Assembly: GCF_002240355.1 (NCBI RefSeq)
Contig: NZ_CP016353.1
Location: 4,813,001-4,877,000, forward strand
Reading direction: 5' to 3'
From: Prauserella marina
GTDB lineage: Bacteria; Actinomycetota; Actinomycetes; Mycobacteriales; Pseudonocardiaceae
Length of the DNA: 64,000 nt
In this document: positions 12,701 through 64,000 of the stretch, in pieces
Numbering within the stretch: the first letter of the stretch is position 1
Layout: each line of letters opens with the position of its first letter
Position numbers and translations under genes: made by a program
Notes under the pieces: model-generated
Databases searched by the model: none
What the model saw: the letters and a program-made list of their open reading frames with translations, nothing else
Told to the model about the DNA's origin: nothing

Positions 12701-12834
12701 TCCTGCGTGAACTGGGTGACGAGGCCGGCGCGATCGGCTGCTGGGAACAGGCGCTGACCCTGCTCGAACAGATCGCGCACTCCAGGGCGGCCGAGGTACG
12801 GAAGCTGCTCGACAACGCCGTGCTCAGCGCGTAG
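9793..12834 (+). CDS. XRE-HTH + AfsR/SARP regulator with NB-ARC and TPR
   Basis: 1013 residues from a GTG with AGGGG about 10 bases upstream. Domains: Cro/C1-type helix-turn-helix (about 10-70, 'MTQQQAAELAGVSLAGLRDLEQG'), an OmpR-like DNA-binding domain (about 80-185), BTAD (about 190-335), NB-ARC ATPase with Walker A 'GMAGVGKT' near residue 390 and 'NALVLLDNAA' as Walker B, a winged helix with 'YRLHDLLKDYAR', then tetratricopeptide repeats (about 790-1000; for example 'EGWTLNDLGVAYAETGDMDRA'). Compared with the regulator at 6107-8875 it has an extra N-terminal HTH. It should be a cytoplasmic, nucleotide-gated transcription activator. Bases about 10490-11815 have strikingly C-ended codons unlike the two ends, suggesting a mosaic gene. 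It converges on the giant gene, from which it is separated by 59 bases. Confidence 0.93.
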   Translation: MTGPAGSLRRIDKLIQEFRRRAGMTQQQAAELAGVSLAGLRDLEQGRVAKPRVATLRRLATALALSADETDELIGLSLNTQIPGYDLWVQVLGPLSAQVAGAAVDPGSARRRMLLGLLALAPNEPVARDSLLEWLWDSEPPETAVALLQTDVSRLRRRLLPRKPDASANRLVIATQSGYQLTLGDQQLDLLAFRKLASAAAESRKQGDLVGACEQFKQAVNLWRGEPLTNLPALRVHPATVALGRERQALVLDYASTAGELGRHSEVLPFLRDVAESDPLHENIHAALMIALAGSGQQAAALSVFTDLRNRLATELGADPGHELAQAHQRVLRHDLTRSEQPATATRAHRQLPRDIADFTGRETELSVLQARAARNAEHHTATTIANIVGMAGVGKTRLAVRLAHQLLAAGKYGDQQLYVDLHGHAPQPPADPNTVLASFLHLLDVPGDQIPQDLDSRAALYRDRLHGKNALVLLDNAATAEQVLPLLPAGATHLVLVTSRRTLALDGTHTLPLDVLSPTDAKALLVQIVGPQRVNAEPTGARDVVELCGRLPLAVALVAHRLQARPAWRFEDLALRLHEASDRMSELAAGTRRVRAAFDLSYQALTTEAQTVFRLLGLHPGEDFTAASTAALAGHTPTHTRRVLDHLVDEHLVMVTNGDRYRLHDLLKDYARDLISAEDIGYRRKALRRLLRWFSHSAVAARARLLPDDPLLLPAWSEGAEHLPIFANEDAAFRWLEAESATLVSALPAALEHGLPGAAWRLSVALQAHFRFTSDRSVWLDVAKTGLAAARAAENKQGEGWTLNDLGVAYAETGDMDRAAELFAESIAIRTELGELQTLGRVLGNSAIVHAFKDEFATAISEFERAREIARDVGDVFFEIGVVNNLGETYQRAGRYDEAIAQFREGIAMSDKAGHTRNRALSLHGLGSALARLGHHSEAMEPLREAIDIHHRAKSRADEAETLQTLGNVLRELGDEAGAIGCWEQALTLLEQIAHSRAAEVRKLLDNAVLSA

Positions 12835-12893: not shown

Positions 12894-15800
12894 CTAATCC
12901 GGCCTGCCGCCGATGCCGGGCGGCGTCAGGGGTGGTGGCCGCAGGAACGGCGGCGGCTTCTCCTCGCTCGCCGTGCGGAACGACCACGGGGTCCGGTCGA
13001 TCTCGCGGGAGAGGCCCGCCTTGTCGGCGAGCGCGACGTAATCGGGGTAGATCTTCTCGGCGATCAGTTCGTTCAGGCCGTCCAGGATCTCGTAGATCAT
13101 CTGGGCGCGCAGCGGCGAGATGGGCTTACCGTCCCAGTTCGCCAGCAGGTTCAGCAGGTCACCGACAAGCACGCCCCGCTTCTGGTACCAAGCTCGGGTC
13201 GCGGAAGTGGTGTAGGCCGATCCCGCGGCGATGGCGATAGGCAGCACCAGCCCACCCGGCTGGAAAGGGCCTTCCTTCGTGACATCCAGAATGCCACGTC
13301 GCACCACACCGGCAGCCCCAGCCATCCCCAATTCCCACGACGACAGCGTGGCCAGCCCCGGTATACCGATCGAGATCTTGTGGAACCCCTCGGCGAGAAC
13401 TCCCAGTGCCGCGAGCAGTTCGGGATACCCGGCGGCCGCGTCGGCGGCGCTGACGGCAGCGACCGCGTTCGAATCGACGTTGTTGGGCCACACCCTGGTG
13501 GGCTCTCCCGGAACAGGGGCGACGAACCGCACGAACATCTCGTGCGGATGCTGTCCCAGCAGGGCCGCGCCGATGTTGCCCGGACCCGGCCGCCGGATCT
13601 TGTCGACGAGCAGTCTCGCCTCCCTGTCCCCGATCAGCTCGACCTTCCTGACGTGGGGAATCTTGCCGGCCAGCTCACCGCTCTCGACGAGCTCACGGAA
13701 TCCTTCGATATTCCAGGACCCCTCACCGCTTTCCCGTTCGAGCAGATCGCGGTACCAGGCCCGGTCGGCTTCCGTGACGAACTCGGGATGCCGTTCATGC
13801 AGTTCGGCTGTCGCCCGCACGAACCGCAAAGTCCTGGCGATCGCGATCCGCACGTAGTCGTCCATCATGCGGCCGGTCGGGGTCTTGGTGTCCACCGGAA
13901 CGAGCCCGCCGTCGATTCCCTTCGCCGCACTCTCGCGGGGAGCCTTCGCGCCGAACGCGGCATCGACGAGTGCCTGCAAGAAGCGGAACGCGTCGCTGCC
14001 GGCGGAGGTCCGCGCCTGCGATCGCTGTTGTTCGGTCGCGGTGGGGTCCTGACCGGTGACGAGGTAGGAATAAAGCGCGTTGGGCCCCCCTTCCGGCAGG
14101 GTCGTCCAGCCTGCCTGCCTGACCACCTGGCCGACGGCGATCGGCTGTAACCTTCCCTCCCTGTCGATGATCTGGCCGAGCACTTCGCCGAGCCGGGCGT
14201 TGCGCTCGCGGGCCGTCGAGTAGCGCGGCAACGCCATCAGCAGCAGCCGGTCGCCCACCCCGTACGTCTTGTGCACGGTGGACGGTGAGAAATCAGTGGG
14301 AATATCGGGATCGTGGCTGAGCCGGATGGTGACCTTGACCGCACGATCGAAACGGAATTCCCCTTTTCGCCTTGGTTTGTGCGTCTCGATCACCACGTTC
14401 GGCTCACCGGTGGCGGCGTTTTTCTCGACCGCGACGGAACGCACCTGCCGCGCGGTCGCGTGTGCGACGAGGTCCTCGGCAGCCGATTCGAGCAAGGTGC
14501 CCGGATCGTCATCCAGCCGCCGCTCCTGCCCGTCAAGGCTCTCCGGGGGGAGGTGCGCCTCGGCTTCTCTCGACATGCGGTCCAGGAGCTCGGTAACGCC
14601 AGCCAATGCGGCAACGGCCCGCTCCGCGATGTCCTGCCCGGTCACCGGACCGTCCGGTTTCCCGTCGCCCAGCCGTGCTCTGCGGGCGTCCTCCCAGATC
14701 TGTCTCGCCAACGACCATTCACGGAAGTCCTTGTAGCCGGTGAGGGCGATGCTCAGCCGCCAGCCGAAATTTCCGCCGAGCGCCTGCATCACCAGATTGG
14801 CTGTTTTGGTGACCAGACCGAATGACAGCGTCACGAGAATCTGCACGAGGAACGGCCAGATCTGGACCAGCACCATCGTCTTCAGGATGATCGCCCGCCA
14901 CAACAGGCGCGCCTCGAACAATCCGGAGAGCAACTGACCTGACAACGTGTGCCACAGCATGTCGTCGTCGGCATCGGCCAGCCGCGACGAGTGCGGGTAC
15001 ACCACGGTGACCTCAAGTTCGCCCTTGCCACGAGCGAAACCGCGCACCATTCGCTGCGTCGCGTACAGCCCCGTTCCGGCCGCCACCCGGATGTTGATCC
15101 GGATCCCCGGCCCCAGAATGAGCCGAATCGTCTCGTTCTCGGCATCCCACCGCGCGTCCCGGGCACTCCCGATCAACTCGCGGTAGCTGCCCTGGTCCAG
15201 CAGGTCGGGGGGAAGCGGACGGCCAGGCGTCTCTTCCGCTCCCAGGGCGGCGGCCAGCTCCGGTACAAGCGCCCGGACCCGGGCGTCGATCCGTTTCCGT
15301 TGAGTGGGGGTGGCGGGTTCCGACAGCATCTCCGCGGTTTCCGGCAGGTTGATCCCGCGTTCCTCGGCGAAACCGTCCCACTTGCGCACGGAATCGTGTG
15401 CTGTCCTGGTGATCCTGCGTAGGCCGGGACCATGATGCCCGCCACGCCAACTCGCCGCCATCCTTCTGGCCTGATCGCTTGCGATGGCGAACTGCCCCTT
15501 GTAGGTGTGCGTGAGCGAACCTTGGACCAATGCCATATAACCGAACTGGCCGAGCGCCGCGAGCAGCAGCAGCGGGTCGGCCCCCAGGGTCATGTATCCG
15601 AGACCGAAGCCCGCGACGGTACCTGCTATTGCCCCGATGCCCTCATCACGAGCCATCTTGAGGAAAACCGCGGGTGACGGCAGCGGCATCACATATCCGC
15701 GGATCTCCCGGCGAATCAGGTCGGTGAGGGCGGCGTCGGCTTCGGCGATCGTCTCATGGCCGGTGTCCAGCACCAGCCTGCGGCTGCCTTCCACCCAGGC

Positions 15801-18800: not shown

Positions 18801-21135
18801 GACCCTTGCCCGTGCGGCCTTGTCGCCGACGATCACCGGTTCACCGAACCGGTTCGTCTGCCTGTTTCGCTCGCTGAGCTCGAACTCGATGGCGGTCTCG
18901 GCGATGCCGTCCGCGAACTCGGGGTCGGTCAACCGCATCCGCACCCGGATCTCGCTGCCGTCGACGTCCCATACGTCGCCTCCCAGTCCGGCGAGCCGGT
19001 GGAACCGCTCCCGCACGCGCAGTTCGACCTCATCGGCGTCGAACCGGCCACCGAAGTGCTCGTTGAGCTGTTCGGCCAGTTCGGCGATGAGCGGAAGACG
19101 GAGCGGAGTTCCGGTCAGCAGCGCGGCCCGCTCGACCGGGCCGAGCAGGGGCTCCCGCACCTTCTTCGGCTCTGGGAGCAGCGGAAGCGTCGCCATCGCC
19201 GACAGTTCGGGATCCCTCACCGCGAAGGCCCTGCTCAGCCATTCCACGTCGGCGAAATCGCGCCGCTGCTGCTTGGTGTACCGGCCGTGGATGTAGAGGT
19301 CGGTCGCGATGGCCCGCAAGACGTCGACGTCGTGGCTCGACAGTTGATCCGGAACGCCAGCGCTGAGCAGCAACCCCGCGAACGCGGCGAGGTCGTCGGC
19401 GTTGCCGCTGTCGTAGCCGAACAACTCGGCGAGGTCGTGGAACTCGCCACGGGGTTCGGGTTTCCGGAGGAAGGCAGGGAGCAGCCTGGCCACCGGCCGC
19501 ACCGTGGAGGCGACGCGCGACCTGGCAGCCTCGGCCTTGCGGTCCCGGCGCGACCGGAAATTCAGGCTTTCCGCGCTGATGTCAGCCGGCAACGTGAGCA
19601 CGTGGTCTTGTCCGCGCAGCGCGGCGAGCTTGGTCGCCGCGCCGAACCTTTCGTCGCCGAACCGCTCGTACAGCCGGGGCAACTCGACCTCGTGCTTGGC
19701 GAGTTCATCGACGTCGACGTCGAGGGCACGCACGGCCCGCTGAAAACCATCGTCCTGCCGCTCCTCGGCGATACCACCGTCGGCGTCGAAGGTGAGCACG
19801 ACGAACCGGGGAACGTAGATCCCCGCCCTGCCGTGGATGTCGGCCTTGTCCCGGCTGCTGACGTTGTAGGACACCACGAGCCTGCCGGGACCCCGGTCGA
19901 TCTCGGGATGGGCGTGCGCGTTGTAGGTGAACACGTCGTCGCTGCCGTACGTGCCCTTCGCACCCGCCTCCGGCGTCGTGTACAGGTGCGCCGGACCGGT
20001 GAACGGGCCGAACGGCGTCCGCGCCACGTAGCCGACGATGTCCGGACTCGACGGTGTCCTCGTGTCGTGCGTGATCAGCAGATACGTATCGCCGACCCTG
20101 GTCACGCTGAACTCGTTGGCGACCCCCGGCATCACCCTCGCAGCGTCGGACTCGAAGATCGACCAGCGCCGGTCCTCGGTGTAGAACTCCCACTGCCCCG
20201 CGAGACTGTCATCGGCTACCCGCGCCACGCGCAGGTACTTCGTGTCACCGAGGTCTTCGACCCCGTACACGTACCGGTAACCGTCGTCCGTGTCGTGCAG
20301 AACCGCCGCCGTCCAGTCGACGCCGGTCACCGAAGGCAACTCGTACACCTGCGCGGGAGCGCTCAGGTCCCCGTCGCGATACCGGGCGACGACGTTGCGC
20401 CCCCGGTTCTCGTCCGCACCTCGCTCGCGATAGGTGACCTCCGGCGTCCCGTCATCCCTGCGATTGAGATCGCCAGGCCAGTACCACCTGCCGTCGTCGG
20501 GATGCGGCATCGGCTCGACGGGGATCTCGCCGTCCCTGCCGAGGACGGTCTCCAGCTCGCCGTCGGGAGGGATACGAACAAAAGCGTTGCGCAGGAACGG
20601 AATCGTCTCGCCGTCCACGACGGCCTGCAACCGGCTCCCGTTCTCGTCGACGGTGCCGAGGAAGGCGTCCGAAAAGGACATCAGGTAGGAGCCGTCCGGA
20701 GCCGCGATGCCGTACGTACTGCCGCCGCCCGTGAAGGTCTCCGGATCACCGTTGCCGATGTGCCTGGCGAACGCGTCCGTGAGTTGTTCGTCGACGTCGA
20801 CGGACACGACCGAAAGAGTGGTGGCATCGCTGCCGTACCTGACTGCCACGGCATCGGCGACCTCCGCGAAACCGAACGGCTCCAGCGTGGTCCTGATGTC
20901 GGTGGCGACGTCGTCCCACCGCTCCCGCTGGACGGGGTCCTCGGCCAGCTCGAACAACGCCCGCCGGAGCGTCGCGACGACGTCCGGCCGCTCCTCCTCC
21001 GGTGTCGCGCGAAGCCGCTCCACCGCTGCGCTCAGCAGCACCTGATGCGGCTCGCCGTCACTGCGTGGCGCGCTCGCCGTCGCGGCCTCCGGCCCGTGGC
21101 CCTCGTCCTCGGCGACGGGGGGTTCCACGGGCGAG
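12894..21135 (-). repeat. Giant protein: tandem module M4 (C-terminal)
   Basis: About 2,747 residues, shortest because its N-terminal helical linker is cut down ('PHQVLLSAAVERLRATPEEE'). Landmarks: propeller 19770-20821, an extra Lys/Arg-rich 'RPKAALRKLRTERAVTPSP' linker, 'MGLNETTYGSERRHRFL', 'YQVYVWFGEKKGPSDG', hydrophobic zone 1 (about 15520-15665, 'IGAIAGTVAGFGLGYMTLGADP'), zone 2 (about 14740-14900, 'QIWPFLVQILVTLSFGLVTKT'), 'MALPRYSTARER', 'PTGRMMDDYVRIAI', zone 3 (about 13185-13275). It ends the protein with the same Pro-rich hinge that joins the other modules, as if one more module could follow. Confidence 0.8.
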
Positions 21136-24100
21136 CGCCGGTCACCGATGACCGGAGGCGCCACCGGCGGCGGCGAGAGCAGTTGCGGCGGCGCCTGCTC
21201 CGCACGGGGTGTGCGGAAGACCCACGGTGTCGTGTCGGGGTCGCGGGAAAGCCCCGCCTTCCCCGCGAGAGCGACATAGTCGGAGAACACTTTGTCGATC
21301 AGCTTGTACGTCGAGGTGACGACGCCGTAGCCGATCTGGGCGCGAGCGGCGGCCATCGGGCCACCGTCCCACGCCACGAGGCTCCGCAGCTTTTCGTCGG
21401 CCTGCACCTCAAGCCGGTCGTACCAGCCGTCCGCGGCGACCGAGACGTAGGTCGCGGCGGCGGCGAGCCCCAGTGGCACCGCCAACTGATCGACCCCGTA
21501 CGGCGCCGGTTTCAGCGAGTCCAGGACGATGCGCCGCACCGCCGAGGACGCCGCGCCTTCGCCGAGGTGGTACAAGGAGAGCGCGCGCAGCGGGGGGACG
21601 CCGGACGGGGCTTTGTGGTACGCCTCGACGAAACCACGGAGCAGCGAGAGCAGCTCCGGGTATCCGTTCGCCGCGTCGACCGGACTGAGCGAGACGATGC
21701 CCACCGAGTCGCCATCGTTGAATCGCAGGGTGGTCGGTTCTCCGGGAACCGCGGGAACGAACCGCACCTGAACCTCGTGCGGATACTTGCCGAACGCTTT
21801 GGCTCCGATACCGAGGGGGCCCCGCCGCGCGACGTTGTCGATGGTCAGTCGCACCTCCCGGGGTCCGGTCAGGTCGGCACGCAAGAGGTGGGGCAACTGG
21901 TCGACCAGCCCACCCGATTCGACCAGTTCCCGCCACTCCGTCAAGCTCTCCGGCAACGAACGGAACTCGGCGGGGTTCCACCCCCGGTACCACTCACGGT
22001 CGGTTTCCTCCGCGAACTCGGGGTACCGCTCGTGAAGAACGGCGGTCGCCGCGAGGAGGCGTTGCGCATCACCGACCAGGACGTCGAGATAGTCGTCCAT
22101 CATGCGCGGCGTCGAGGTCATCGTGTCGACCGGCGCCAGGCTTCCCGTGATCGCCCCTTCCGCGTTCTCCCGATGGCTGAAGACCTCCGTGCCGGCTTCG
22201 ACGGCGCGGAGTCCGACATCGATCGTGTCTCGGACCGCCGACACCCTCGCCTGTGTCCGAGCGGCTTCGGACACGGTCGGGTCCATACCGGGCCCGAGCA
22301 GGGAGTAGAGCGCGGTGGGCACTCCCCCCGCCCCTGCTTTGATCAGGCCCTCCAAAGCAAGCGGCCCCTTCCCCAGCGGGAGGATCGAGCCTTCTCTGTC
22401 GAGGATGTGATCCAGTTCCTCGGCGAGTCGCTCGGTTCGCCTTTCCGCCGTGGAGTACCGGGGAAGCGCCATTCGCAGCAGCCGCTCCTTGACCGCATAC
22501 TGCTTGTGCACAGTGGACGGTGAGAAGTCGTCGGGGATTTCGGGGTCGTGACCGAGCTGGATGATGGCGGTGATCGTCGGCGAGTCCCGCCGTTTCCACG
22601 CGTTCCCCGGCCTACCGGTCTCGATGACGACCTGCCGCCTGCCGGTGTCCACACTCGTCTCGACGGAAGCCGAACGCACGTCGTGCCGGGTCCGCGCGTG
22701 CGCGACCAGATCCTTCGCCGCGGCCTCGATCAGGGTTGCGGGGTCGTCGTGCAGCCGGTTCTCGCCTCCGCCTCCGGCATCGGCCGGAAGGTGCGCCTCG
22801 ACCTCGGTACGCATCCGCCTGACGACCTCGGCGGACGCGGCGAGCGTGCCCACCGCGTGATCGGCGTAGCGGTTCAGCGCGGTGGGGCCGTCGATCATCT
22901 CGTCCCCGAGCAGCACCTTGCGGGCACCGGCCCAGATCGTCTCGATGAGCTTTCTCGCCCGGATGTTCCGATATATGGCCACCGTCCCCGCGATCTGGGC
23001 CCCCAGAGCTCCGCCCACGGTCTGCATGACCAGACTCGCCATGTTCGTGACCCAGCCGAACACCCCGATGACGCCAGCCTGCAACAGGAAAGGCACCAAA
23101 CCGGTCCACAGCAAGGTCCAGAAACTCGCGAGCCGCCACACGACGCTCGCCCCATGCAGCGCCGACAGCAGTTCGCCCGAAAGGTTGTGCCACAGCGTTT
23201 TGTCGTCGGCACGGGCGAGATAAGCCGATGGCGCGTACGCCACCTCAACCTCGATTTCCTTCTTCACCGCGTCGCCATTCACGACACGCTGGCTGGAGAA
23301 TCGTCCTTCACCCGCGACGAACCTGACCGTGACCTTCTCGCCGGTACCAAGGGTCAGCGTGATTCGTTCGTTCTCGCTGTCCCACCGCACATCGGCGACA
23401 TCCGTGACCAGCTTGCGAAGGCTGCCCTGTGCCAGCAGGTCGGCGGGCAACTCCCGGCCGGGAGCCTCCTCCGCTCCCAAAGCGGCCGCGAGTTCCGGAG
23501 CGAACGCGCGCACTCGCGCGTCGAGCCGTTCCCGCTCGGCCGCTGTCGCCGGTTCCGAGGGAAGCTCCGGCGGCACCGGCAGCCTCACACCGAAGCCGTC
23601 GGCGTGCTCCCGCAACTGTTCGGCGGTCTGCCACGCGTCCTTGGCGAGCCTGGTCAGACCCGGACCCCCCAGTCCGCCTCGCGAGCTCGCCATCCACCTG
23701 CGGACCTCCTCCGTGGCCGCGTTCTTCCGCCCGACCAGGTTGTGTGCCACCGGACCGTGAATGGTGCCCCCATAGACGGCCTGCGACACCGCCGCGATGA
23801 GCAGCAGCGGGTCCGCACCGATGGTCGCGAGCCCCACGCCGTAGCCAGCCGTGGTGCCGACGATGTTGCCCCCGGCCGCTGAATGGCCCCATCTCAGGAA
23901 GTTCGCCGGTGGGGCGGTCCTCGTGGGGTACTCCGCGATCGCGGTACGGATGATCTCCCTCATCGCGTTCTCGGCATCGGTCATCGAGGCGTACCCGGCT
24001 CCCAGCACGATCCTGCGGCTGCCCTCGACCCACAGCACGTTCCCGGCGGCCGGGATGTCACCGGCGCGCTCCGGCTCCTCGATCTGGACGGTGAAACCGT

Positions 24101-27100
24101 AGGAGCGCCACCCGAGCCACCCGCCGGTAACGCCGTCTCTCTCGCCTGCCCAGAAGACCACTCGGTAGACGCCGTATCGCCGCGGCGATCCGGGCATGGT
24201 GGCGTTGCGGAGAGGGTGGTCCCTGGCGTCGATAGGTGGTTCGTCGGCGGGCTCGATGATCACCCGATGCACCGGGCCACCATAGAACGTGTCGTCCATT
24301 GGATCGCCGAAGTGGAAGTCCTTGATCAGGCCCAGCTTCCGGCTGTCCGTGTACTTGAACAGCCACTCCAGCTGGCCGACTCCGGGAATCGGATGCTGGT
24401 CCAGCGTGGTGAAGTGGGTGACGAGCCTCCGCCCGGTCTCGGTGAGCCTGCCTTCGAGCCGGGAATTCCGCTGAATTCGCTCGAAGAACTTGTGACGGCG
24501 TTCGCTGCCGTACGTCGTCTCGTTGAGCCCCATGGTGTAGAGCAACATGCGGGCTTTTTGCTGGTTGTGAACAAGGTTCGGCGCGCGAACGGCCAGCACG
24601 GGGCTGGGGACGTCTTCCGTCGTGAAGCCCTCGTACCCGAGTTCCGCGAGCCTGCCGAGGTCGGCTTCGATTTCGGCCAGCACCGTCAGCACGGTGTCGG
24701 CATAAGCGACGTCGCCCGCTGAAGGCCGGAACCGCAGCGGCGGCTTCGGACTCCGGTCGAACAGCACCGGTTGCTCATCCGCCGCGTCGGGGGCGAGCAT
24801 CCGTGCCGGTTCCTCCAGCTCCAGCAACCTTTCGGCCCTGCTCTCCAGCACGGCCAGCGTCCTGTTCGCCCTGGCCGCGCTCCTGGCGACGTCACTGTCC
24901 AGGAACAGCAACAACTCCATGACGCCGGCCTCGCCTGCCCGTTCTCCGAGCAAGTTCCCCATTTCGAGCGTCTTGCCCGCTTCCGCGAAGTCCGAAGCGA
25001 TAAGCCGCAGCCCCGCCGCGAAATCCCCTCGTGCCGCGGTCCTCGTGTCACCGTGGGGAGCGTCGTGCCAGGCGGCGAGTTCGCCCAGTCTCTCCGCGAG
25101 CTCACGTGCCCGCACCGCCAGTTCCGAGGGAGGGGCCTCCCATTCGGCGCGTAACAAGAGATCGCTCAGTTTCGCGGCCTCGGTGAGCGCTCTTTCGGTC
25201 GCGTCCCAGCGTTTCGGGAACGCCATGATCCGGGTCGGCGGCGTGTCGGAATCGACAACCTCGTCAGTGTGCCCAGCTCCCTCGGCCAGCGCAGCGGGGC
25301 GCGAAAGGGCGGTCGCGTCGGCACGGGCCGAGGACACCACCTCGTGCGCCCACCCGTCCATGGCACCGAAGAGCGCGTCGACGGCGGCTCTCAGCGGAAC
25401 GCCGACGAGTTCGGTGAGGCCCGAAGAAACATCCGGGAACGGCCTGAGCACGATCCGGACGGGACCATCGGGAACCGCAACCACGTCGATCAGCCCGGTG
25501 AGCCCCGAGGTCTGAGGACGCACCGTGAACGAGGGAGCTTCGATCCGCGACTCGCGCGCCAAGGGGTCGACCACGATGTCCACGTCGACATCGGCGCCAT
25601 GCCACGTGGACCGCCACCGCGACGGCGCGTCCCCCTTCCGGAACCCCTCGCCGTCACGCTCGAAGAACTCGGCGACGGCACCGGCGATGTCGGTGACCGT
25701 CCAGCCAGCCCTCGCCGGCAGCGTCGGCAGGCGGTGCGGTTCGAGCACGACGGGTTCCGGCGGTTCGCTGGCCTCGACCGGAGGCGCGGTCTCGGCGGGC
25801 TCGGCGCGCATCACCGGCTCATCGCCGAGTTCGGACAAGGGCACGTACACGACGGCATCGCCGTACCGCCGTCGCCGCCAGCCGCCCATGACGGTGTCGT
25901 GCTTGCGCAACTCGGCGAAGAACGCGACCGGTATCCGGAACGCGGCGAATTGCTCGCTCTCACCGGCAAGTTCCGTCACACCAAGGAACGCGGCATCGCG
26001 CACGTGCTGTTCCATACGCGTCGTCATCGACATCGCCTCGGTGCCGGAGAGGAAGCGCGTTTCCGGCACCGCCAGGGTCACGTCAAGACCGTTACGGACC
26101 AGCGGCCGGTATCGACGTAACAGATTCTCCTTCCGGAGTGCCCGGTCCAGCCTGGACATGTTGCCCAGCTGGGCGCGCCGCGCATGCCTGTTCCTCGGCA
26201 TCATGCCGTCCGCTGCGAATCGGGCACCATCGGGCAGGTAGTCGGCGGCGGGAACGAGTTTCGCCTGCCCGGCGAGGCTCATCGCCATTTCTCGCCCCGG
26301 CGCCACCGAGTTGCCGCGTTTCCGCTCTCCCGGGGGACGATGCACGGTCAGGTCCCGCAGAACTCCGCGCGGCGCTTCGATCCTGCCCTCTCGCGTGATC
26401 TCCCTCAGCCTGGTCACCGCCCATTCCGGATCGATGCCCTGACGCATCGCCGGTGTCTCGGCCCCTGCGGGAACCGGCAGCCCGTAGTCATGGGCGTCGG
26501 CCGCCGTCATCCGGGTCAGCATCGATCCGCGCACCTTGACGACGTCGAGTTCGGCGCCCGTGCCGGTGAACACGGTCAGTTCGTGCACAGCGCCCGTGGA
26601 GCGAAGCGGATCGGTCGGATCTCCCCACTGGTGGGTCAGTTCGCCGTCGCCGGAAACGGCGACCAGTTTCGCGTTGCCGTGCTCGATCGTGATCACGTGC
26701 CGGATCACCACGCTTGCCTTGCTTCCGTGCACGACCAGCAGGTGCCCGTCACCACCACCTACGGCCTCCGCGAACGCCTTGCCGCCGGTCAATTCGCCGG
26801 CATAACGATGGATCTGTTCCCGCATCACCGGCTCGACGGGGAGACCCGATTCGCCGATCTTGCGAATCAGTTGGCGCGCGATCCGGTGCCGCTCCGTCAA
26901 CTCCAGCACGTCGGCTCGCGGGAAGTCCGGGAAGCCGGTGACCTCCGGCCGCGCCACGTCCTCGAACTCTGGACGACGGCTGGTCAGCGCGACGGTGATC
27001 GGCGCGCCGTCCTCACCGACGACGACCGCTTCGCCGAACCGGTCCGTCTCCTGGTCCCGTTCACTGACCTCGAACACGGCGTCGACCTTCGCGATGTCGC

Positions 27101-51100: not shown

Positions 51101-54100
51101 TGCCAATTTTAGCGAGGCTTTCACCAGACTCGACTCTGTCGTCGATAAGAGTAAGACCACGGATGACCTCGGCGTGATAGTCGAACCGCACCGACGGCCT
51201 TCCTGGCCGGAACAATCGCCAGTCTCCATACGTCGGCGAATCGGAATCCGGATCTTTGACAACCGCCGCCGGGTAAAAGCCATCGACGGGAGACCGACTT
51301 ATATCGGTCTCAGGCGCAAGTACCGACACTCCTAGCCGGTTCGCGAGTTTTTGAGCGTAGCTCGACCGTTCCATCATGGTCGCCACGTACTCGATTCCGG
51401 CACTCAACCACCGAAGGAAGCTATTGTCCCCGATCGCATTGCCGACCTGGCGCAGCGCAGCGGAACGGCCCATTCGTCTGCTCATCGGTGAATCGCCAGC
51501 GCGGCAGACGGACAAGATTATCCCTCTACCCGCGAGCGGTGTCGTTCTGAGAATCCTGGCCATGTCGGCCGCAGTTGGCGGCTTCTCGTTGCTGTCGTCG
51601 AAGTCCAACCCTACGAAATGGCCTTCGTCGTCGAGGACTCCGTGCGCATGGACGGTGTAGCGGGTCGGATGGTGGCCCAGGGGGAAAGCTCCCCACGGCT
51701 CCGCCCGGGAATAGAACCCGTCGGGGAGCGTATTGCCGCCGGTCTCTGCAAACCACCGCAGCCGTGACGGTAGATAGAGCATACGTTCGCGTAGCGCCTT
51801 CACCTGCTTGTGAGAAAGGGGGTAGCGAGCTTGATCAGCGGCCATAAGGTAACGCTTTTGCTCCAGGTACTTCACCCCTGCGGCGTCGGCAGCATCAGCG
51901 GCCGCGGCGTCGTCGATTTGTCTCACTCGCTCGTACAAGCCGGCGAGCGTCCCGACCTGGAAGGAAATATAGTCATTCAGTGGAACAACCTGATCCAACG
52001 CATACGGGCTGAACGGACCACGCGCACGCACATACAGGTCGAGTTGCGATTTCAGGTCAGCAGAGGTGTCGAATGGCAAGACAACCTTGTCATCTATCCA
52101 GGCGATTTCGCTTCCGAATGGTGTCAATAACACCTTCGTAACGTAATTGTCCGGTCGCGGCCACCGAAGACCCGCCACGATGCCATCGTCTCTGAAGACG
52201 TAAGTCTTGAACAGGGATTCGTAGGCGGGCTGGTGGAGAATCGCCAGCATCCGTTCCGTGAAATCACGGACGTTTTCCCCTGACGAAGACCGGAACGCGA
52301 TCTCGTCGCCGGGGCCCCGCTCGGTCGCGTCGCCTACATAACCGGCGTTGTCGGCACCAGCACGCGTCCCCTCCGCGACCTCACCAAACGACGTTCCCGC
52401 CCGCTCGTGGATATCCGCCGCGAGACGATGCGCGCCCGGCAGACTCGTCAGCCATTGCGCCGCGACCCGCGTCAGCAACTCGGCGGCGACCTCGTCCTCG
52501 ACCACCCGCAACGCCGACAATCCTTCGGGCCGCGCAACACCCGGGCCCTCGCTGGAACGCTGACTCACCAACGCCCAATGCGCCAACTCGTGCAGAACCC
52601 GCAGCACGAGATGCCCCACCGTCACGCCAGGGCCGATCCGCAACTCCAGCCTCGGCACATCCGAACCCGAATCCCACACCAGCCTCGCATCAGCGCCGCT
52701 GTCCCGAGCCACGAAATTCACCGAGTCGAACAAACCAGGAATCATGGAACTCACGGAGGGCGCGAGATCTCCGAAAACCTCATCGACGCCAAGGGAAACC
52801 ATCGCCTCCGCAACAGGCGCCACGGCTGCCCATCGTTCGACGGAATCGACAGTACGCTCGAAACCCACAGTGGACTCGGTGCCCACGGGTGCTTGCCCCG
52901 GTTCAACATGGCTCATCATCCGGGCGTGGAATCGGTAACCGGCCGAATCCGCGGTTCCTTCGTCTAGGCCATATTTTGTCTGTACCGCGTCGACGAGTAC
53001 TCGCCGAGCGAGATCAAGCACGGTTGTCTGTTCGTCTTCCACGACTTCGGGAAGACGAAGTACCGCGTCGCGGATCGCTTTCGCGAACTCCTCGGGCACC
53101 GCTTGCGCCGACTCGGCGGGGTAAGTCACCTCATAAGGAAGACTGTTCGCCACATCGAACCAGCCCTCCAAAGCGACATGGGAAACCGTCGCCGTTACGT
53201 AATTACTCATGGACTCCACAACGGCATCCGCAGGGAACCACACACCGGTCGACAGCGGCTGCCTCGTTCGATGCGAATGAATCCCGGCGAGTTCGGCTTC
53301 CGCACCGATATCGGCGAGGCTCTGACCGGAGTCCGGCCTTTCGGCTAGGAGCGTCCTAGCCGTATCGGTCTCGTTGCGAAGATCGAACCGACGCGGCGGC
53401 TCCCCCGGCAGGAACAGTAGCCAGTCGTCGTAGGTCGGCGATTCCGCTTCAGCCTCGTCTACGACCGACCTGACGTATGCATCGCTGTCGAAGGGGGTGT
53501 GAGTAGTCGACACGGGCGCCACCACCGACACTCCCAGCCGGTCCGCGAGCGTCTGAGCATAGTTCGTCCCCGTCGAAGTCGGGCCGCCCGCCCTGCAGGA
53601 CAACAGGAAAATACCTCTTCCCGCGAGTGGCATCGTCCCGAGCAACTCGGCCAGTTCGTCCGCGGACAGTGGTTCCTCACCGGAAGCACGGTGTCCCAGG
53701 CCGACGAAATAGGTCGCGTCCAACACCCATCCGTGCGCCTCGACGGTGTAACGGGTGGGATGGTGGCCGAGCGGGAAGTCCCGCCACGGTGACTCCATCG
53801 AGTGGAATCCGTCGGGCAGCACCTTGCCCTCGTCCCGAATCCACCGCAGCCGCTCCGGTAGAGCGCGGTAGCGGCTTTCCAGTACAGCCATCTCCTCTTG
53901 GGAAAGAGGGTGGCGCACATCCGCGGTCATCAAGTCATGCTGTCGCGCGTAGAGTTCCGGAAATTCCTTGTGCACCCTGGCGACGGCTTCCCGGACCGTG
54001 ACTTTTTCGACCCGTGCGAAGAGCTCGGCGAGCGTTCCGACACTGTAATTCGGGGAGTAATTCAGCGAAGCGAACTGCGCCAATGCATGGGGGCTCATCG

Positions 54101-57100
54101 GACCACGAGCACGCACATATCGGTCGAGCTGTGGCGCCAACTCCACCGAAGCGTCGAATGGCAGGACCAGCCCACCGCGTTTCCAGGCGATCTCCTTGCC
54201 GGACGACGTGAACGTCACCGTCGCGGCTACCCCGTCCGGCCACCGCACCGTCGCCGTGACGCCGGTTTCCCGCACCGCCGGACCGCTGAACAGAGAACGG
54301 AAATCAGGTTCCTCAAGAAGCCTCGCCATCCGTTCCGCGAAAGTACCGGCATTCCCTGACCGCGACGCGATCTCGCCGAGCGACGTCCTCGCCAGCTCAT
54401 GAATGTCGGCGGCAAGATGTTCCTGGCCGGGCAATCCCGTCAGCCACTGGGCGGCGAGCACCGAAACCAACTCGGCCACGACCTCGTCCGCGACCACCTG
54501 CGACAACCCCTGCGGCCTGGAAAGCCCGGCCACTCCGGTTGACCGCTGGTTGACCAGAACACGATGCGCCACCTCGCGCACGGCACGCAACACAAGATGG
54601 CCCACCGTCACGTCACGGCCGACCCCCAACTCCAGCCGCGGCACATCGGAACCCGGTACCCACACGAGCCTCGCGTCCGTACCCGGTTGTCCACTGAGGA
54701 CATGGAGCGAGTCGAACAGACCCGGAACGAGCGGCTCGACGGAAGAGGCGAGATCGCCAAGCACTTCGCCTAGTCCACGGGTCACCATGGCCTCGACAAC
54801 GGGAGCCGCTTCTTCCAGGTCCCTGCTGGAAAGCACCACCCTGTTGAACTCCACCGCCGATCCTGGCCGCAACGGCCTGCCGGAGCGGAAAATCCCGCCG
54901 GTGACCTCGGCGCGGAAACGGTCGCCGACGATCTCGGCCGTCGCGGCGTCGCCGCGAAGGATCGTGGTCGCCGCGTCCATCACGGCCTGCCGCGCCAGAT
55001 CGAGCACGGTCGTCCGGTGTCCTCGCGTGACCTCGGGAAGACGGTGGATGGCCTCCTCGATCGCGTTTTCCGCCTCACTGACCGAGACGAACCGCGCCCG
55101 AAGACCATTCCACGGCTGGAAGAAAGCACCCCGCGCGACGACTCGCGCACCCGCCATCGCGACACCGCGCACTGCTTGCCGGGTCAGGTCTGTCACCGTG
55201 TCGACAACAGTGTCGGCGGGAAGCAACAACCCGGTCGGCAACGGCTGCCTTGTCCGGACCGAATCCGTCCCGGCACGCTCGGCACGCTCTCCGATATCGG
55301 ACAGCTGGTTTCCGGTTTCGACCCTTTCCGCGATGAGCGACCTTCCGGCCTTGATCTCGGCATCCCGGTCGAATCGCGCCGAGGGCTTACCTCGCAGGAA
55401 CAGGCGCCAGTCCCCGCGTATCGGGGACAGACCTTCGAAATGCCGCTCCACCGCGCTCAGGTACGGATCGTCGCCGGGAACATGCGCGCTCACCGCGAGT
55501 TCGGGGGCGACGACGGAGACTCCCAGCCGGTCCGCGAGCTCCTGAGCGTAGGTTCCCCGTTCGATCATTCCGGCGACGTACTCAAACCCACCCGAAAGCC
55601 AGCGGGTCAATGCACTTCCGTCCAGCGTCTGGCCGAATTCGCGCAACCGGGTGGCGATCCCCGACTTCCGGGTCCCCGGACGGGGCCGTCCCGAATCCTG
55701 AAGATCGAGGAAAATGCCACGCCCTCCCACGGGGAAGGTCTCGATCAGCGCCGCGAGCTCGGTCGGCGTCAGCGGCTCCTCACCGGGCACGTCGTGCACG
55801 GTGACGGTGTACCGCGTGGGATGGTGACTGACCGGGAAATCGCCGCCCATGACGAAACCGTCGGGAAGGACGGTTCCAGCGTCCCTGATGGCGCGCAGCC
55901 GCTGCGGAAGCTGCTCATAGCGGATTTGCAGCTCGCTCATCTCGTCGGCCGACAGCGGGTAGCGCGCTTCGGCAGCCGACATGAGGTACTGCTGCCTTGC
56001 GTACATCGGCGTCCGCGGAACGTCCGCGGCGAAGGATTCGGCATTCCGGCCGGTCTGCCGAGCCGTGTACTCCGCGTAGGTCCCGACCCGGAAATCCTGG
56101 TTCATCGCGGCAAACCGCGCAAGTTCATGCGGGCTCAGCGGACCATCCGCCCGCAGGTAGTGACCGAGTTGCGGTTCGAGCTCGGCTGCCGGATCGAACG
56201 GCAGGATGAGCCTGCCTTTTCGCCACGCGAGTTCGTTGCCGAACGGCACGAGTGTCGCCGGAGCAATCACCCCGTCCTGCCACGACACGAGCGCTTCCAC
56301 GGAACCGTCCACTACGGACGAGACGGACAAGGCGTCACTGAACTCGGGATCGGCCGCCAACGCCCGTGCACCGGCCACGAAATCGGCATCCATGCGATCG
56401 GCAGGCGCGGTGTGAAGCGCGATCTCGGCACCAGGTCCCGACCCCGCGACACCGTCCACATAGGCCGACCCCTCGACCGCTTCCCGCGCATCGCTCGCGT
56501 GCTCGGCGAAGTCGTGCCCCGCCAGCTCGCGAAGGTCGTCAGGAAGTCGCTGGCCCTCCGGCAGCCGTTCCGCCAGCCAGCGAGCAGCCGACCGCGACAC
56601 CAACTCGGCGGCGACCTCGTCCTCGACGACCCGCGACTCGTCGAGCCCTTCGGGCCGGGTCGTCCCGCGCTGCTCAACCGAAAGCCAATGGGCCACCTCG
56701 TGCATCACCCAGGTGACCAGATGGGCCACCGTCACGCCGTCGCCTACTCGCACCTCAAGGCGCGGCAACTCCGCACCCTGGTCCCACACCAACCGTGCAT
56801 TCGGGGTGCCGCCTTCGGCGACCCGCGAGACCGACCGCAGCAACACCGGCACCAGTTCGGCGCCCCTCGCGGCAAGCTCGCCACCCAGAGCCTCGTCCAG
56901 GCCCGCCGTCACCATCGCCTCGACGAACGGACTCACCGCGACCAGGTCACGTCGCGAACGCACGGATGACAGCAAATCGACCCGCTCGCCTCTCGGCGGC
57001 TCCCCCGTCGGCATCCCCCGCCGGATCTCGGTCAGCAGCGTGGAAACCCTCGCGAACCCCGCGTCCGCGCCGGAAAGGGCGTCCGCGACCAAGAACGGCG

Positions 57101-60100
57101 AGCCTGTCTCGGTACCGGCGAACTCGTCGGCCCGAGACTCGCTGTGGATCGCCACCTGAGCGGTGATGGCGAGCCTGCGCAGGCCCGCCGCGGCGCGGGC
57201 ATAGTCGGCCTTGCCCTCGTCGGCCGCCAGCACGAGGTCGGTCATCCACTCGGCATAGTCATTGACCTCGGCGAGCCAGTCCTCGCCCGTCTGCCGCAGC
57301 AGATCGCGTCGCGATGCCAGCGTGGTCTCCAGCACGGCCCGGCGTTCGCCGCTGCGCTCGGCGTTGGCGAGGTCTCCCCTCGCCAACGCGGTCTTCTCGT
57401 CGCGAGCCGCCTCCCGCCAGTCCGCTCGCAACTCGCGCAGGGTCGCCGCGTCGCTGCGCCATGCGTCCCAGTCGAACGACAGCTCGTTGATTCGCCACGC
57501 GGTGGAGCGAACCGACGTCGGCATCGCCCCGTCGTCGCCCCAGCTGGGTTCGGGCCGCCCTGGCGCGGCCGTCGCGGCCACGAGCTGCCGCACGGCCGTC
57601 TCCAGCTCGACGAGCCGGGTCGCCGCGTAGTCCGCGCCCACGGCGGCCAACTGTCCTTCATGGACTCGGGAGAACAGTCTCCCCGATGCGGCAAGGGCTC
57701 TGCGGATAGTCAGCCAGGCACGGCCTTCGGCATCGGGCCGGGCAGCCATGACGCCGCTCAGGAGCGAGCGCAACCCGAGTAGGGCGTGTTCGAGTTCCAC
57801 GAGGTGTTCGTACGTCGGCTGTGTTTCGGCGATCGCCGATACCCGCAGATCCAGTGCCGCCACGAATCTCGCGACATCGGCCATCGCGGTCACGAGACCG
57901 GGTTCCGACAACGCGCGGACGTGAGCCACCAACTCCCGCGCGGTCACGCCGGAAGCCAACCGGTGGGCGGGATCGAAGTGACGTGTGGCGAAACCGGTGT
58001 CAGGCCGGTGGGGATGTTCGGCGACCAATCCGAACGGTCGAGGCTCTTCACCACCGACGCTCACGGAGACTTCGATGGGGGCGAGCTCGCCGAACCGGCT
58101 CGTCTCGCCCTGCCCCAGCACGGCCACCGTCACGGGAGTGCCCAGCGAACCGCCGTCGCTCACCCTGTCGTCGTCGACGAAGCCCCGGTAGACACCATCC
58201 TCTTCGGAGTATCGCAGTCGAGCACGCCACAGCATCCGTCCCGCCCCGTCGGGCGACCAGCCTTCGACGATCCCGGTGTGCTTGTGGAGATTGGGCCGCA
58301 CGGAGAGCGAATAACTCCTCTCGTCGTCCGCACTCCGATAGTTCCACACCACTTCACTACGGGTGATGCCTAGCCGTACCAGGTCGATATTGCGCGTCCA
58401 CGCGGCGATCACTCGTTCGCCGAGGGTCGGCTCGCGCCGTTCCGGGATTGGCGAGACCGGAGATTCGGACTGTCCGGAGTGGAAGGCGATCTCGGCATTG
58501 TTGCCCTTGCCCGCGATACCCGCGGCGTAGTCCGAACCCTCGGTCGCATTCCGCACGGTGTCCGCGTACTCGGCGAACTCATGTCCGGCCAGCCTGCCGA
58601 GATCCGCTGGCAACCGCTGCCCCTCCGGCAGTTTCTCCGCCAACCACCGAACGGCCAAGTGTGACACCAGTTCCGCCGCGACCTCGTCCTCGACGACCCG
58701 GGATTCGGGCAAGCCCTCGGGCCGCCCAGGACCCCGTTCACCCACCGTGAGCCAGTGCGCGACCTCGTGCATCACCCACACCACAAGGTGAGCCACCGTC
58801 ACATCGGAGCCGAGCCGCACCTCAAGCCGAGGCAAGTCCGCGCCCTTGTCCCACACCAACCGCGCGTCCTCGTCGACGTCATGCGGGGTGTCCGAAACCG
58901 AATCCAGCAACACCCGCGCCAGCTCCGCGCCGCGCGCCGCCAGGTCACCACCCACGACCGCATCGAGCCCGAGCGCCACCATCGCACCGACCGAAGCGCT
59001 CGACTCCTCCAGGTGCCACGGGGAAATCACCTTGGTCATCAGACCCGGCGTTTCCGGCCACCGCGGTTTCGGCTCCAGCAGATAGTCGCGGCTCAGGTTT
59101 CCATCGACACCGCGGACAGCGGAGAGCGCGGCGTCGGCACGTGACCGCGCCTCCTCGATCGCCGTACCGGTTGCGTCCGGCTCGCCCAACAGCCGGTCGA
59201 GCTCCCGTTGGGCTTCCGTCCACTTCGCACCGGCGCGGGCGTAGTCGCGGAGAAGCACCGCGGCGCGCACGAGCTCGCTCTTCCGCTTCGGGACGATCTC
59301 GACTGATCCGGCCGCGGCTGCGTGGGCGTCGGCGGCATGAACCGCGTCGTCGGCGTAGTCGGCCAGCCTCTCCGCGTCCGCCACCCAGTCCTCGGACGTC
59401 GGCAGCAAGCCGCGCCTCATCGCCAGAGTACGGTCCAGCGCGGTTCGCCCGGCTTGGATCCGGTCGACTTCGACGAAGTCGCCTCGGTTACGCGCCATCA
59501 GCTCGTCGAAACCGGCCTTCCGCCATTCCGTACGCAATAGCAGCAGGTACTTCAGATCCCAGCTCGTCGCCTGCCAGTTACGCCGCAATTGCTCGATCTG
59601 GCCGAGGAAACGCTCGGTCAACCCCGCCGCGCCCTCCTCACGCGGGTCGAGAAGCGAAGGGTCCACCGGACTTGCCGCGATGGCGAACCGCCGGAACGCG
59701 GTCTCCAGGGCAACCAGCCGAGTCTTGACGGCATCACCATCCGGTGGCCGCACCGCACGCCAAACGTGACCGGTTACAGGCTCTATGGCCGCAAGGGCAC
59801 CGCGCACTACCTGCCAGGCCTCGTCCTCAAGATCAGGACGTTTCACGACGAGCTGTTCCAGCATCACGCGCAGGTCATCCAGCCCTGTTTCCAGCATCTC
59901 AAGCGTAAGCTCCTCCGACGGGTCGTTCACGAAGCGGAGCAGATGCTTGTTAAAGTGACCGACCGTCCGGGCGATCCGTTCCGCCATGTTCCTGAATTCG
60001 GCAGTGCCACCGTCAGTCGAGTACGGCGAAATATTCCTGGCCCATTCGAGCAAGGCAGAAAGTGTATTACCCGAAGCCAACTCTTGTTCGGCTTTGACGA

Positions 60101-63100
60101 ATTTTGCAGCGTACCCGATAAATCGGCGTCGGGATGGAACCTCCCTGAACAACTCGAATCGTTGCTCGTCCTCGGAACCCACCCGGATCGATAGCGCTTC
60201 GTGCGCGGCGTCGCTGAACCGCTGCTTCCCTGGCCGCAGCACTACGGCGGCTCCTGGCGAAACACCGCCGCCACCCGATTCGGAAGTGCCGACCACACCC
60301 TCGTAGAACTGGCCGATTCTGGAGAACCGCAGCCGGGCCTCCCACAGGACCCGGCTCACGGCATCAGCCGATTCCGCCCGAACGACCAGCGTGTCCTTGC
60401 GACGAGGCCGCGTCACCACCAGCCGGTAGGACACGGCCGGATCAATACTCCGGTAGGCGAAGAACTCCTCGGAATCGCGTTTCCTCGACGCGGCGAACCG
60501 CTCCAGCGGGCCCGGGTTGCGCCGCGTCTGCTGCCGCGAGTTAGACCCTTCCGCGCCGGACACGCTGCCAGCGTCGGACTCCCCCGCGCCTCCAAGCCGG
60601 AGTGCGGGCAGTGCGGCCGGATCGAGCATCGAGTCCGGAAGGCTCGTCAACCACCGGGCGGCAAGATCCGACACCAGCTCAGCGGCATCCACAGTGGACG
60701 GTTCGGCGGGCTCGCCCTCGACCGGTGCCGCTTCCCGCCCTCCTTCCGACAACCAGCGGGCGACCTCACGCATCACCCATTCGACGAGGTGCGCCACCGT
60801 CACGAAGGCGCCCACGCGCACCTCAAGGCGCGGCAACGCCTCGCCCCGATTCGGCACGAGCCTGGCGTTCGCGTCCACCCCCTGCGCGAGCGGGGACACC
60901 GACGCCAGCAACGCGGGTACCAGCGCGGCTGCTCGCGCCCCGAGTTCGCCACCCACGATCTCCTGGTAACCCAGCGACGCGAGCGAACCGACGATGCCGG
61001 AGACCTCCGAGAGGGCATGCACCGAGGTCACGAGGCGACCGAGGTCGAAAGCAGGGAGACTGCTCGCGACCTCGTAGCCGTTCCTCCACTGCCACGGGAC
61101 GTCGACTGTCTTCCTGGACCGGGTTTCTGGCGATCGACGTGCGGTGACCGCTTGGTTCCTCGCTTCGGCGATCGCCTTCTCCGCGGCTCGCCACGCCTTG
61201 TCGGCGGCCTCGGCGTACCACGCGGGGTCGCCGTTCCCGACACCGGCCACGATGTCGTTGGCCACGGCCTCGGCGTGCAAGGCGCTGCCGATCGCCATCG
61301 AAAGCTGGTTCAACGCGCCGACAGACTCGGCAGAGCCTTCGCCGGCGCTGTCCGACACGGCCGATTCCATGGCCCTGACGTGCTCCGCCACGGCGGCCTG
61401 CAATTGCCTTGCCTGATCGGCCAGTCCGCGAGGCTCCCGCTCCAGCAGGTCGCTCAGACGTCGCGTCAGCGGACCTTCGCGCAACTGTGCGGCCTCGGAG
61501 GGCAGGCCCTCCTCTTCGAGTTTGGCGGCGATGTCGGAGAGTTCGCTCCACTCGGCCCGCCAGGTCCGGATCGACTCCGCCGCGCGACGCGAAGCCCGCG
61601 AGCCGGGAAGCAGGTCGGCGAACCGGGGCCGAGCCCCCTCCGGCGTGTCGGGGCGCAGGTACGGCGGAATACGGGTTGTGTGCGCGAGTCGCCGGACGGC
61701 GTGTTGGAGAGCGTCCACGCGGGCGCGCGCCTGCCGGACCCCAATCTCGTCGAGCAGTGCGGCCACCCGGCCTGGCAGCGCGTCGTCGGTCAGTTGCCGA
61801 CGGCGAGACAGCGCGTCGGCGACCGCGCGGGCCTCCGTCAGCACTCGTTCGGCGTCCAATGCCAGATCGGGGCGAACCGGTACTCGCGTGGGCCGCAGCA
61901 GCGCGCTCAGTTCGTCGGCGACCTCGCCTGCCTTCTGCCCGAGCAGCTCCGTTGACAGCCCGGAGGAATCCCGGGCAAGCTCGTCCAGCCTGGTCACGAA
62001 CTCCATGACGTCGGCAACGGTGACCGTGCGCTCCGGCCCCGAGATCACCGTCATCGCCGCCAACTCGCCAGAGACGAGTGGCTCAGCGGCTTCGGTGCCG
62101 GTCTTTTCCGGTGCGAGCACCACGCTTCCGGGGTGGAGGGACAGTAGTTCCGCGAGCCGGGACCACGCTCGGTCCGCGTCGTCACGAGCACCCGTCACCT
62201 CGACGAAAGAGCCCGGCGTCGATCGGTCCAATCGTTGCGTCGGACGAGTTTCCGCCGCGATGACCGCGCCGACCGCGTCCCGTACCGCCGAGAGCCGTAC
62301 CGCCAGTTCGGTCAACGATGTGGTGTCGGTGGGTTTCGCCGCGGCTACGAGACCGGCGGCCTTCGCCGCGGTCACGAGATCTGCGACCAGTGCGTCGGTG
62401 TCGCCGATCAGCCGTCCCGGAGTGCCCTCTGCATTGGATCGCATCGTGCTGAACCCAGCCAGCCTGACGTCGATGCGGGCCCGCAGCCGGTCCTTGTTGT
62501 CGCCAAGTTCGGAAACGAACGCGTGAGGCGCGTCCTGAGCACGCAGGTCCGCCACCGCGCTCTCGGTCGCCGACAGCAGGACCGTGTCCGCACGCAGCTT
62601 TTCGGCGACATCGCGCAGCGCCTGCCGCTGCCGGTTCAGTGCCTCGAACCGGGGCAGGACCGCCTCCAGTGACGGCTCCATCGTCTGCTCTGCCAACGGA
62701 CTTCCGACGGCAGCTGTGCCATCGGCCGTCCCGAGTCCGCGTACCGCCCGCTCCAGCTCAAGGCCCAGTTCCGCCGCGATGTTCCAATGGAGAACGGCCC
62801 GGTGCCGCGACGTACGGGCCGCTACCTCGTCGCCTCGGATCGACGCGTCGACAGCGCGCAGGGCATGTCCCTTCGCGCCTTGCGTGTCCACGAGAACGTT
62901 CCAGGGGTTGTCCGCATCGCTGCCGAGGTGGCCGGTGAGCTGGGACCGGTAGGCGGTCAGGACGTTCAGCACGTGCTCGATCCGGCCCGCCTGGCCCGGC
63001 GCAGCGGCCATCGCCTTACGCAGAAGTGAACCGAGTTCCATTGTGGACCGGTCGATCTCGTCCTCGACGGCACCCGGCACACCACGTTCGCCCCTGCTCG

Positions 63101-64000: not shown

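Follow-up and report, generated by a model that had tools for sequence, protein, structure and literature searches.

An open reading frame of 27,313 codons (81,942 bp; predicted product mass 2.96 MDa) in Prauserella marina begins immediately after a set of type VII secretion (ESX/T7SS) genes, on their downstream side, and it belongs to a family of giant frames whose linkage to such loci is near-universal. Judged from its sequence, the product is probably a modular effector that is linked to the T7SS and acts at the envelope or beyond it, with attack on neighbouring bacteria as its likeliest use.

Extent and coding signal of the open frame

The window, i.e. the whole stretch of DNA analysed (64,000 bp), corresponds to G000:C1:4813001-4877000; the contig measures 6.85 Mb and the whole genome 6.99 Mb (2 contigs, 99.96% complete). 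On its minus strand, the frame at 12894..63998 contains zero stops and passes the window edge. The initial annotation had described a single giant frame of 17,013 aa from the first in-window GTG, had suspected the start at 63935 of being false, and had proposed upstream extension for the true one. The length is as claimed, the frame is indeed single, with 10,279 codons beyond the stretch open in the window, and the neighbouring DNA yielded a GTG at window-scale 94,835, about 30.8 kb past the edge, together with an N-terminus of a WXG100-like family; since the frame stays open up to this GTG, 63,935 is a false start. The features are listed in Table 1, where positions beyond 64,000 continue the numbering of the window.

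Table 1. Positions of the giant frame, its modules and its neighbours on the window scale
Feature	Position	Strand	Remark
Convergent AfsR-like regulator	9793..12834	(+)	HTH, BTAD, NB-ARC, TPR
Giant ORF	12,894-94,835	minus	G000:C1:4825894-4907835
In-window part of giant ORF	12894..64000	(-)	residues 10,280-27,313
Large unit 4	12897..20756	(-)	first catalytic-type Asp to Ser; with core; reaches C-terminus
Large unit 3	21066..28943	(-)	propeller with first catalytic-type Asp to Ser; with core
Large unit 2	29466..37268	(-)	DUF4185-type propeller, catalytic-type Asp to Gly and His; with core
Large unit 1	37866..45833	(-)	DUF5005/DUF4185-type propeller (44862-45833), both catalytic-type Asp
APH-type motifs HGDPHPGN and LIDLD	47322..47393	(-)	inside Pfam APH match
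In-window HExxH array	48033..61154	(-)	seven units (five intact), spacer domains between
Second copy of Cys-bearing domain	51066..51863	(-)	Cys 14444
Spacer-type domain with Cys	53286..53954	(-)	Cys 13747, preceded by invariant His; caspase-like only in its motif
Third copy of Cys-bearing domain	55341..56018	(-)	without cysteine
First five of 12 HExxH units	64326-76784		beyond window edge
Set of amidohydrolase-like motifs with hydrophobic region	78636-81818		beyond window edge; motif reading
GntR-type winged helix (PF00392) and two Amidoligase_2 (PF12224)/HELLH units	83184-87626		beyond window edge
N-terminal WXG100-like region	93456-94835		beyond window edge
Upstream small genes	94878-96400		beyond window edge
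T7SS genes, EccC to SseB-like	96725-114625		beyond window edge

The giant frame is open far beyond chance: 0 in-frame stops precede the terminal one, against 424-452 in five shuffles in which every codon position retained its base composition. Each of the five remaining frames across the ORF carries 107-628 stops. Third-position GC is 0.815 overall and 0.70-0.86 per block in 27 tabulated 3-kb blocks, and the positional base composition along the giant is that of a coding frame. At window positions 50001-54000, GC drops to 0.61-0.63 and third-position GC to 0.70-0.74; this dip, which covers two copies of the Cys-bearing domain and nearby HExxH units, may mark imported DNA.

Selection was assessed by pN/pS, which covers relatives, no close orthologue of the giant itself having been seen; the genomes searched include three more of the genus. 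The ratio was below 1 in all windows of the three pairs of giants compared (28/28 for G046 and G078, 18/18 for G002 and G003, 17/17 for G001 and G002), reaching up to 0.77 in places in the relative pairs. Related pairs of giants are under purifying selection.

Repeated modules and loss of cysteine

Pfam scans of the giant were performed on overlapping pieces covering residues 1-24,279 and 24,280-27,313. Over the whole protein (E<=0.1), no ketosynthase, acyltransferase, adenylation, condensation or carrier domains were found, in keeping with the earlier view that it is neither a PKS nor an NRPS. Repeated units, from which growth by duplication had been argued, were recovered as well: 234 of 273 overlapping 200-aa windows have a match elsewhere in the giant (E<=1e-4), as do 166 of the 170 that start in the in-window part, compared with 0/273 in one block-shuffled control. 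Tandem Repeats Finder, covering only periods up to 500 bp, reported one short array in the frame (13601-13650). The self-matches support growth of the giant by module duplication, which in some copies, the HExxH array included, has been followed by loss of catalytic residues.

Behind the export-type domain, the modules follow in the order proline-/coil-rich stretch, GntR with amidoligases, amidohydrolase-like stretch, HExxH array, APH and four large units. Each Amidoligase_2 unit is followed by a HELLH motif, and the amidohydrolase-like stretch with its hydrophobic region is common to six other giants. The HExxH metallopeptidase-like units number 12 in total, 9 intact and 3 changed; their reading as metallopeptidases rests on the motif, since a PDB search with the HExxH alignment gave no meaningful match (best E 0.16). 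The APH-type match carries the motifs HGDxHxxN and IDxD. In an extracellular protein, GntR-type, kinase-like and amidoligase domains would be out of place if they did not work within a target cell; to that extent they count against an effector. With NCBIfam, residues 1-24,279 gave regulator-type matches to the GntR domain and one match at chance level, all far below cut-off and discarded.

Each of the four C-terminal units (about 2,600-2,900 residues) consists of a DUF4185/DUF5005-type propeller and a core of ~1,420 aa. As the units are only 53-58% identical to one another as protein, the assembler is unlikely to have collapsed or multiplied near-identical copies; the propellers alone are 72-78% identical to the first. 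Pfam DUF4185 was matched with 58.3 bits (cut-off 39.5) across residues 14,480-19,479, with its best stretch in unit 2, and DUF5005 with 32.1 bits (cut-off 29.6), with its best stretch in unit 1; unit 4 alone reached 29.8 bits for DUF4185, under the cut-off. In the PDB, the propeller profile matched 4hbs (E 2.2e-11) and, at E 0.0027, two entries for an endo-alpha-D-arabinanase, 8ic1 and 8hhv.

According to the parts of PMC10115798 that we drew on, the DUF4185 enzymes tested are endo-D-arabinanases, and two aspartates are assigned as catalytic. We located the corresponding pair, 18 residues apart, by spacing and by aligning 25 domains. Both aspartates are present in unit 1, in an orphan copy elsewhere in the genome (see below), in both propellers of a giant from another family of the order (G351) and in 18/18 aligned free-standing relatives. 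Units 3 and 4 are without the first aspartate and unit 2 is without both, which counts against the effector reading, and the propellers of units 2, 3 and 4 are not put forward here as active enzymes. The propellers give a hint of enzymes that could cut the arabinan walls of Mycobacterium relatives. The G351 giant (G351:C82:16936-79788) is a 20,950-aa frame with two propeller copies and, by eye, a WXG100-type gene upstream.

At E<=1e-5, none of the pieces that fall completely within a propeller matched any of the 11 other giants. The core profile matched 7 of these 11 (G001, G002, G003, G020, G294, G046 and G078) and left G208, the second giant of the same genome (G000b), G112 and G248 without a match; pairwise searches gave shorter core similarity in G208, G000b and G112. 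The core matched no Pfam family above cut-off. The same was found for the final 805-900 aa in each of 10 other giants (best Gln_amidase, 18.5 bits vs 24.1) and for the last 3,034 aa of the giant itself. The result for the 10 giants counts against the effector reading; absence from Pfam is weak evidence on a C-terminal toxin domain.

The giant contains two cysteines in 27,313 residues (Cys 13747 and Cys 14444), and 12 giants together contain 11 in 187,501. For comparison, 14 sequences of its own T7SS locus, a small set with two of them trimmed, hold 32 in 5,367 residues, and among three further neighbours one 308-aa frame is also cysteine-free. Cysteine depletion is not universal among such giants, since the G351 giant carries 24 in 20,950 aa, a further point against the effector reading. 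Both cysteines occupy the same place in two domain copies, after an invariant His, and the cysteines of other giants are located elsewhere. The domain was matched in 2/397 genomes of the order, namely its own and one with a weak partial match; given this rarity outside its own genome, the description as caspase-like rests on the invariant His and the Cys in 2/3 copies. The 'lonely Cys domain' named by NCBI was not among the NCBIfam matches of residues 1-24,279.

The N-terminal family and the adjoining ESX locus

As a single query, the first 480 residues found matches in 11/297 genomes of the bacterial family, its own included, the best besides its own having E 2.7e-29. A profile of the 11 N-termini (own included) found matches in 143/297 genomes at E<=1e-3, and because at most five candidates were scored per genome, the profile-search counts are lower bounds. 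Close members (E<1e-40) make up at least 30 loci in 29/297 genomes, with 11 of the 30 being rows of the query profile itself. Open frames of 7,316-29,663 codons were found for 23 of the 30, and frames of 3,777, 3,617, 3,486, 3,031, 2,976, 2,974 and 559 codons for the remaining seven. The frame of 3,777 codons (G248) is complete; by coordinates, those of 3,617, 2,976 and 2,974 codons lie inside contigs, and those of 3,031 and 559 codons touch contig ends. The initial annotation considered descriptions of actinobacterial proteins this large to be few; this needs two qualifiers, namely these 23 frames in 297 genomes, the giant's own included, and the giants of up to 13,652 aa already reported in a 2012 survey (PMC3482391, from the passages covered).

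The frame at G269:C112 (N-terminus at 88772-90151) is, with a computed length of 29,663 codons, longer than the giant itself. The second T7SS-linked giant of the same genome (G000:C1:241781-299560) has 19,259 aa and zero cysteine.

In a class-wide sample, the N-terminal profile matched 30/394 genomes, mostly weakly. Pfam WXG100_2 (PF25547) matched 7 of 11 members of the N-terminal family (best E 2e-14). The giant's own N-terminus matched no Pfam model at E<=1, which counts against a T7SS effector; it is placed in the WXG100-like family because of its similarity to the other members. A PDB sequence search with the N-terminal alignment gave nothing at E<=1. A YxxxD/E motif occurs within residues 1-300 in 8/12 giants, and 4/12 are without it there; that its position is not conserved may count against export. 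Scanning the contigs of the genomes with the single N-terminus as query gave zero relatives, and scanning them with an EccC alignment listed 30 loci, 11 of which have a giant-type N-terminus in the flank.

Directly upstream of the giant lie small genes, in order one for 108 aa, one of YbaB/EbfC type, one for 98 aa and one that is WXG100-like, and further upstream EccC, two more genes, mycosin, EccB, EccD, an EccE-like gene and a gene for an SseB-like protein. EccC contains both EccCa and EccCb domains (TIGR03924, 942 bits, cut-off 509; TIGR03925, 885 bits, cut-off 347), and EccB (TIGR03919, 281 bits, cut-off 154) and EccD (TIGR03920, 177 bits, cut-off 95) are likewise above cut-off. Clear matches under cut-off were obtained for EccE (TIGR03923, 63 bits, cut-off 108) and mycosin (TIGR03921, 240 bits, cut-off 279), and the SseB-like gene matched NF033532 ('lone7para_assoc, type VII secretion system-associated protein'), likewise with a score under the cut-off.

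Using the proteins of the giant's own locus, we searched the flanks of 29 close members (own, 11 and 17 relatives); the thirtieth (G279), which starts 504 bp from a contig end, was left out. EccB, EccC and EccD are found together upstream in 28 of the 29 loci, within about 3-15 kb. The exception is G269, whose contig ends 10.8 kb upstream; this stretch holds YbaB-like, mycosin and WXG100-like genes and gave no EccB, EccC or EccD match. The distance from the giant to an upstream YbaB-like gene is about 350-710 bp in the 28 other loci and ~360 bp in its own. As the genome has just four full-length EccC genes, a chance neighbourhood of giant and T7SS is remote; two of the four adjoin the two giants. 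A different WXG100-like N-terminus heads a 5,134-aa frame lying ~8.8 kb from the third EccC (G000:C1:4445646-4461050), and the fourth EccC is found at G000:C1:666575-670570.

SseB-like genes lie downstream of the giant, 35-3,840 bp away, in 10/11 relatives (G208, G294, G000b, G112, G046, G078, G002, G001, G003 and G248), with two such genes in six; in G020, the SseB-like match is upstream instead. They are candidates for a chaperone, immunity or T7SS role. Beside the giant itself no immunity gene was recognised, its 3' neighbour being the convergent regulator, and this counts against the effector reading. A second AfsR-type regulator (BTAD, NB-ARC, TPR) is encoded near the giant's 3' end at window 6107-8875.

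The orphan copy is a 3,289-aa frame at G000:C1:3,999,039-4,008,908, in which part of an amidoligase, a linker and a single large unit recur, with 52% identity over the stretch holding unit 1. The 1,015-aa regulator adjoining it (region G000:C1:3995984-4008908) is 84% identical to the convergent regulator of the giant. With giant-type frame and regulator paired twice, the arrangement resembles the orphan cassettes of polymorphic toxins.

Interpretation and comparison with known systems

From the N-terminal family, the T7SS linkage, the small partners and the loss of cysteine, we infer that the giant, probably translated as one chain from one transcript, is exported by the adjacent T7SS. It would be a dedicated partner of the ESX locus immediately upstream, with the WXG100-like N-terminus as probable export or docking signal, aided by the small upstream proteins. 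The almost cysteine-free cargo, multiplied by duplication, would act at or beyond the cell envelope and would comprise arabinan-type propellers, metallopeptidase-like domains, amidoligases, a kinase-like domain and cores with hydrophobic segments. Outside the cell, the propellers and peptidase-like domains would work on the envelope of neighbours, the likeliest targets being nearby bacteria, in the first place relatives whose walls contain arabinan. The giant shows traits of polymorphic toxins, namely a conserved trafficking N-terminus with variable downstream modules and an orphan C-terminal cassette elsewhere in the genome, and would work like one; membership is not claimed. We know of no T7SS substrate of such size, and this counts against an effector. 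A bolder version, which we regard as doubtful, has the 2.96-MDa protein threading through the T7SS as one chain, poor in cysteine to avoid disulfides, and then cutting itself outside into a kit of enzymes by means of its metallopeptidase-like units (9/12 intact, plus two beside the amidoligases) and the two Cys-bearing domains.

An unlikely but credible alternative is that the giant is exported by the T7SS and directed at the cell itself, as a surface scaffold or as a remodeller of its own arabinan wall in growth or branching. Conserved mycobacterial DUF4185/GH183 enzymes are proposed as modifiers of their own wall in the consulted parts of PMC10115798, and the degenerate catalytic copies would suit a structural role. 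The hydrophobic segments along the chain and the missing sign of an immunity gene beside it also agree with self-direction. A housekeeping part, however, would hardly range from under 3,000 to 29,663 codons across a family, its propellers would not be expected to go unmatched in the 11 other giants, and the orphan C-terminal copy looks like a toxin cassette.

Amidoligase_2, APH and GntR-type domains are usually intracellular. Their presence in the giant, together with hydrophobic segments that could anchor it in the membrane, would fit a protein that is not secreted at all, either a part of the T7SS residing in cytoplasm or membrane or a giant modification enzyme, which regulates or loads the machine; the WXG100-like N-terminal family, the near-absence of cysteine and the propellers of wall-glycan type speak against this, and we consider it quite improbable. 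There is very little likelihood that the long frame encodes several separate proteins from internal promoters or starts: the orphan copy of the C-terminal modules does stand alone in the same genome, but separate genes need no shared frame, the same N-terminal family heads 23 frames of at least 7,316 codons, and selection acts along whole frames of relatives. An assembly or annotation artefact, for which one could cite that one assembly of the species was seen, is largely refuted already by independent genomes with the same type of locus and by the divergence of the large repeat units, and is hardly credible.

If the giant is exported, it would to our knowledge exceed every other type VII cargo by far, and estimates of what an ESX machine can move would go up. 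Its size raises the question of how such a chain gets exported; 28 linked loci in public genomes are available for testing this, and it becomes testable whether export of so large a protein by a T7SS comes at the cost of its cysteines. In the open-access literature, no T7SS-paired giants of this size were recognised among the matches listed.

LXG effectors (T7SSb, Bacillota) are, in the sources as covered, like the giant in placing a T7SS export domain before variable cargo, with small partner genes, and differ in phylum and secretion subtype; they are far smaller. For the giants of Omnitrophota, predation or wall attack has been proposed, and we know of no T7SS link. They belong to another phylum and are likewise encoded by single bacterial genes of extreme length, as described in the covered portions of PMC10066038 and PMC11573180. 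CpnT of mycobacteria, in the passages covered of PMC8092274, is a T7SS-exported toxin that needs two upstream Esx proteins and shares with the giant an N-terminal helical T7SS-substrate domain (EspB-like in CpnT), upstream Esx-type genes and cargo behind; it differs as a two-domain protein with one toxin, and is likened here by description. The DUF4185/GH183 endo-D-arabinanases (PDB 8ic1, 8hhv; PMC10115798, in part) are of the same Pfam family, and unit 1 keeps both of their aspartates; unlike them, the giant holds four copies in one chain, three without one or both.

On a larger scale, and by description, the giant resembles the giant multi-toxin proteins of the 2012 survey (PMC3482391, as far as its covered passages go), e.g. 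SACTE_5178 with 13,652 aa, the greatest length reported there. Like the giant, they are actinobacterial, very long and equipped with several enzyme domains per chain, and the survey names the T7SS among the export routes of polymorphic toxins. They are about half as long, no dedicated ESX locus is described beside them in those passages, and the ADP-ribosyltransferase, lethal-factor-like metallopeptidase, caspase and MCF1-SHE domains of the survey were not identified in the giant by Pfam or NCBIfam. Giant multi-toxin proteins as such were known; a family of giants, up to twice 13,652 aa in length, each with its own ESX locus, was not found among the open-access matches listed.
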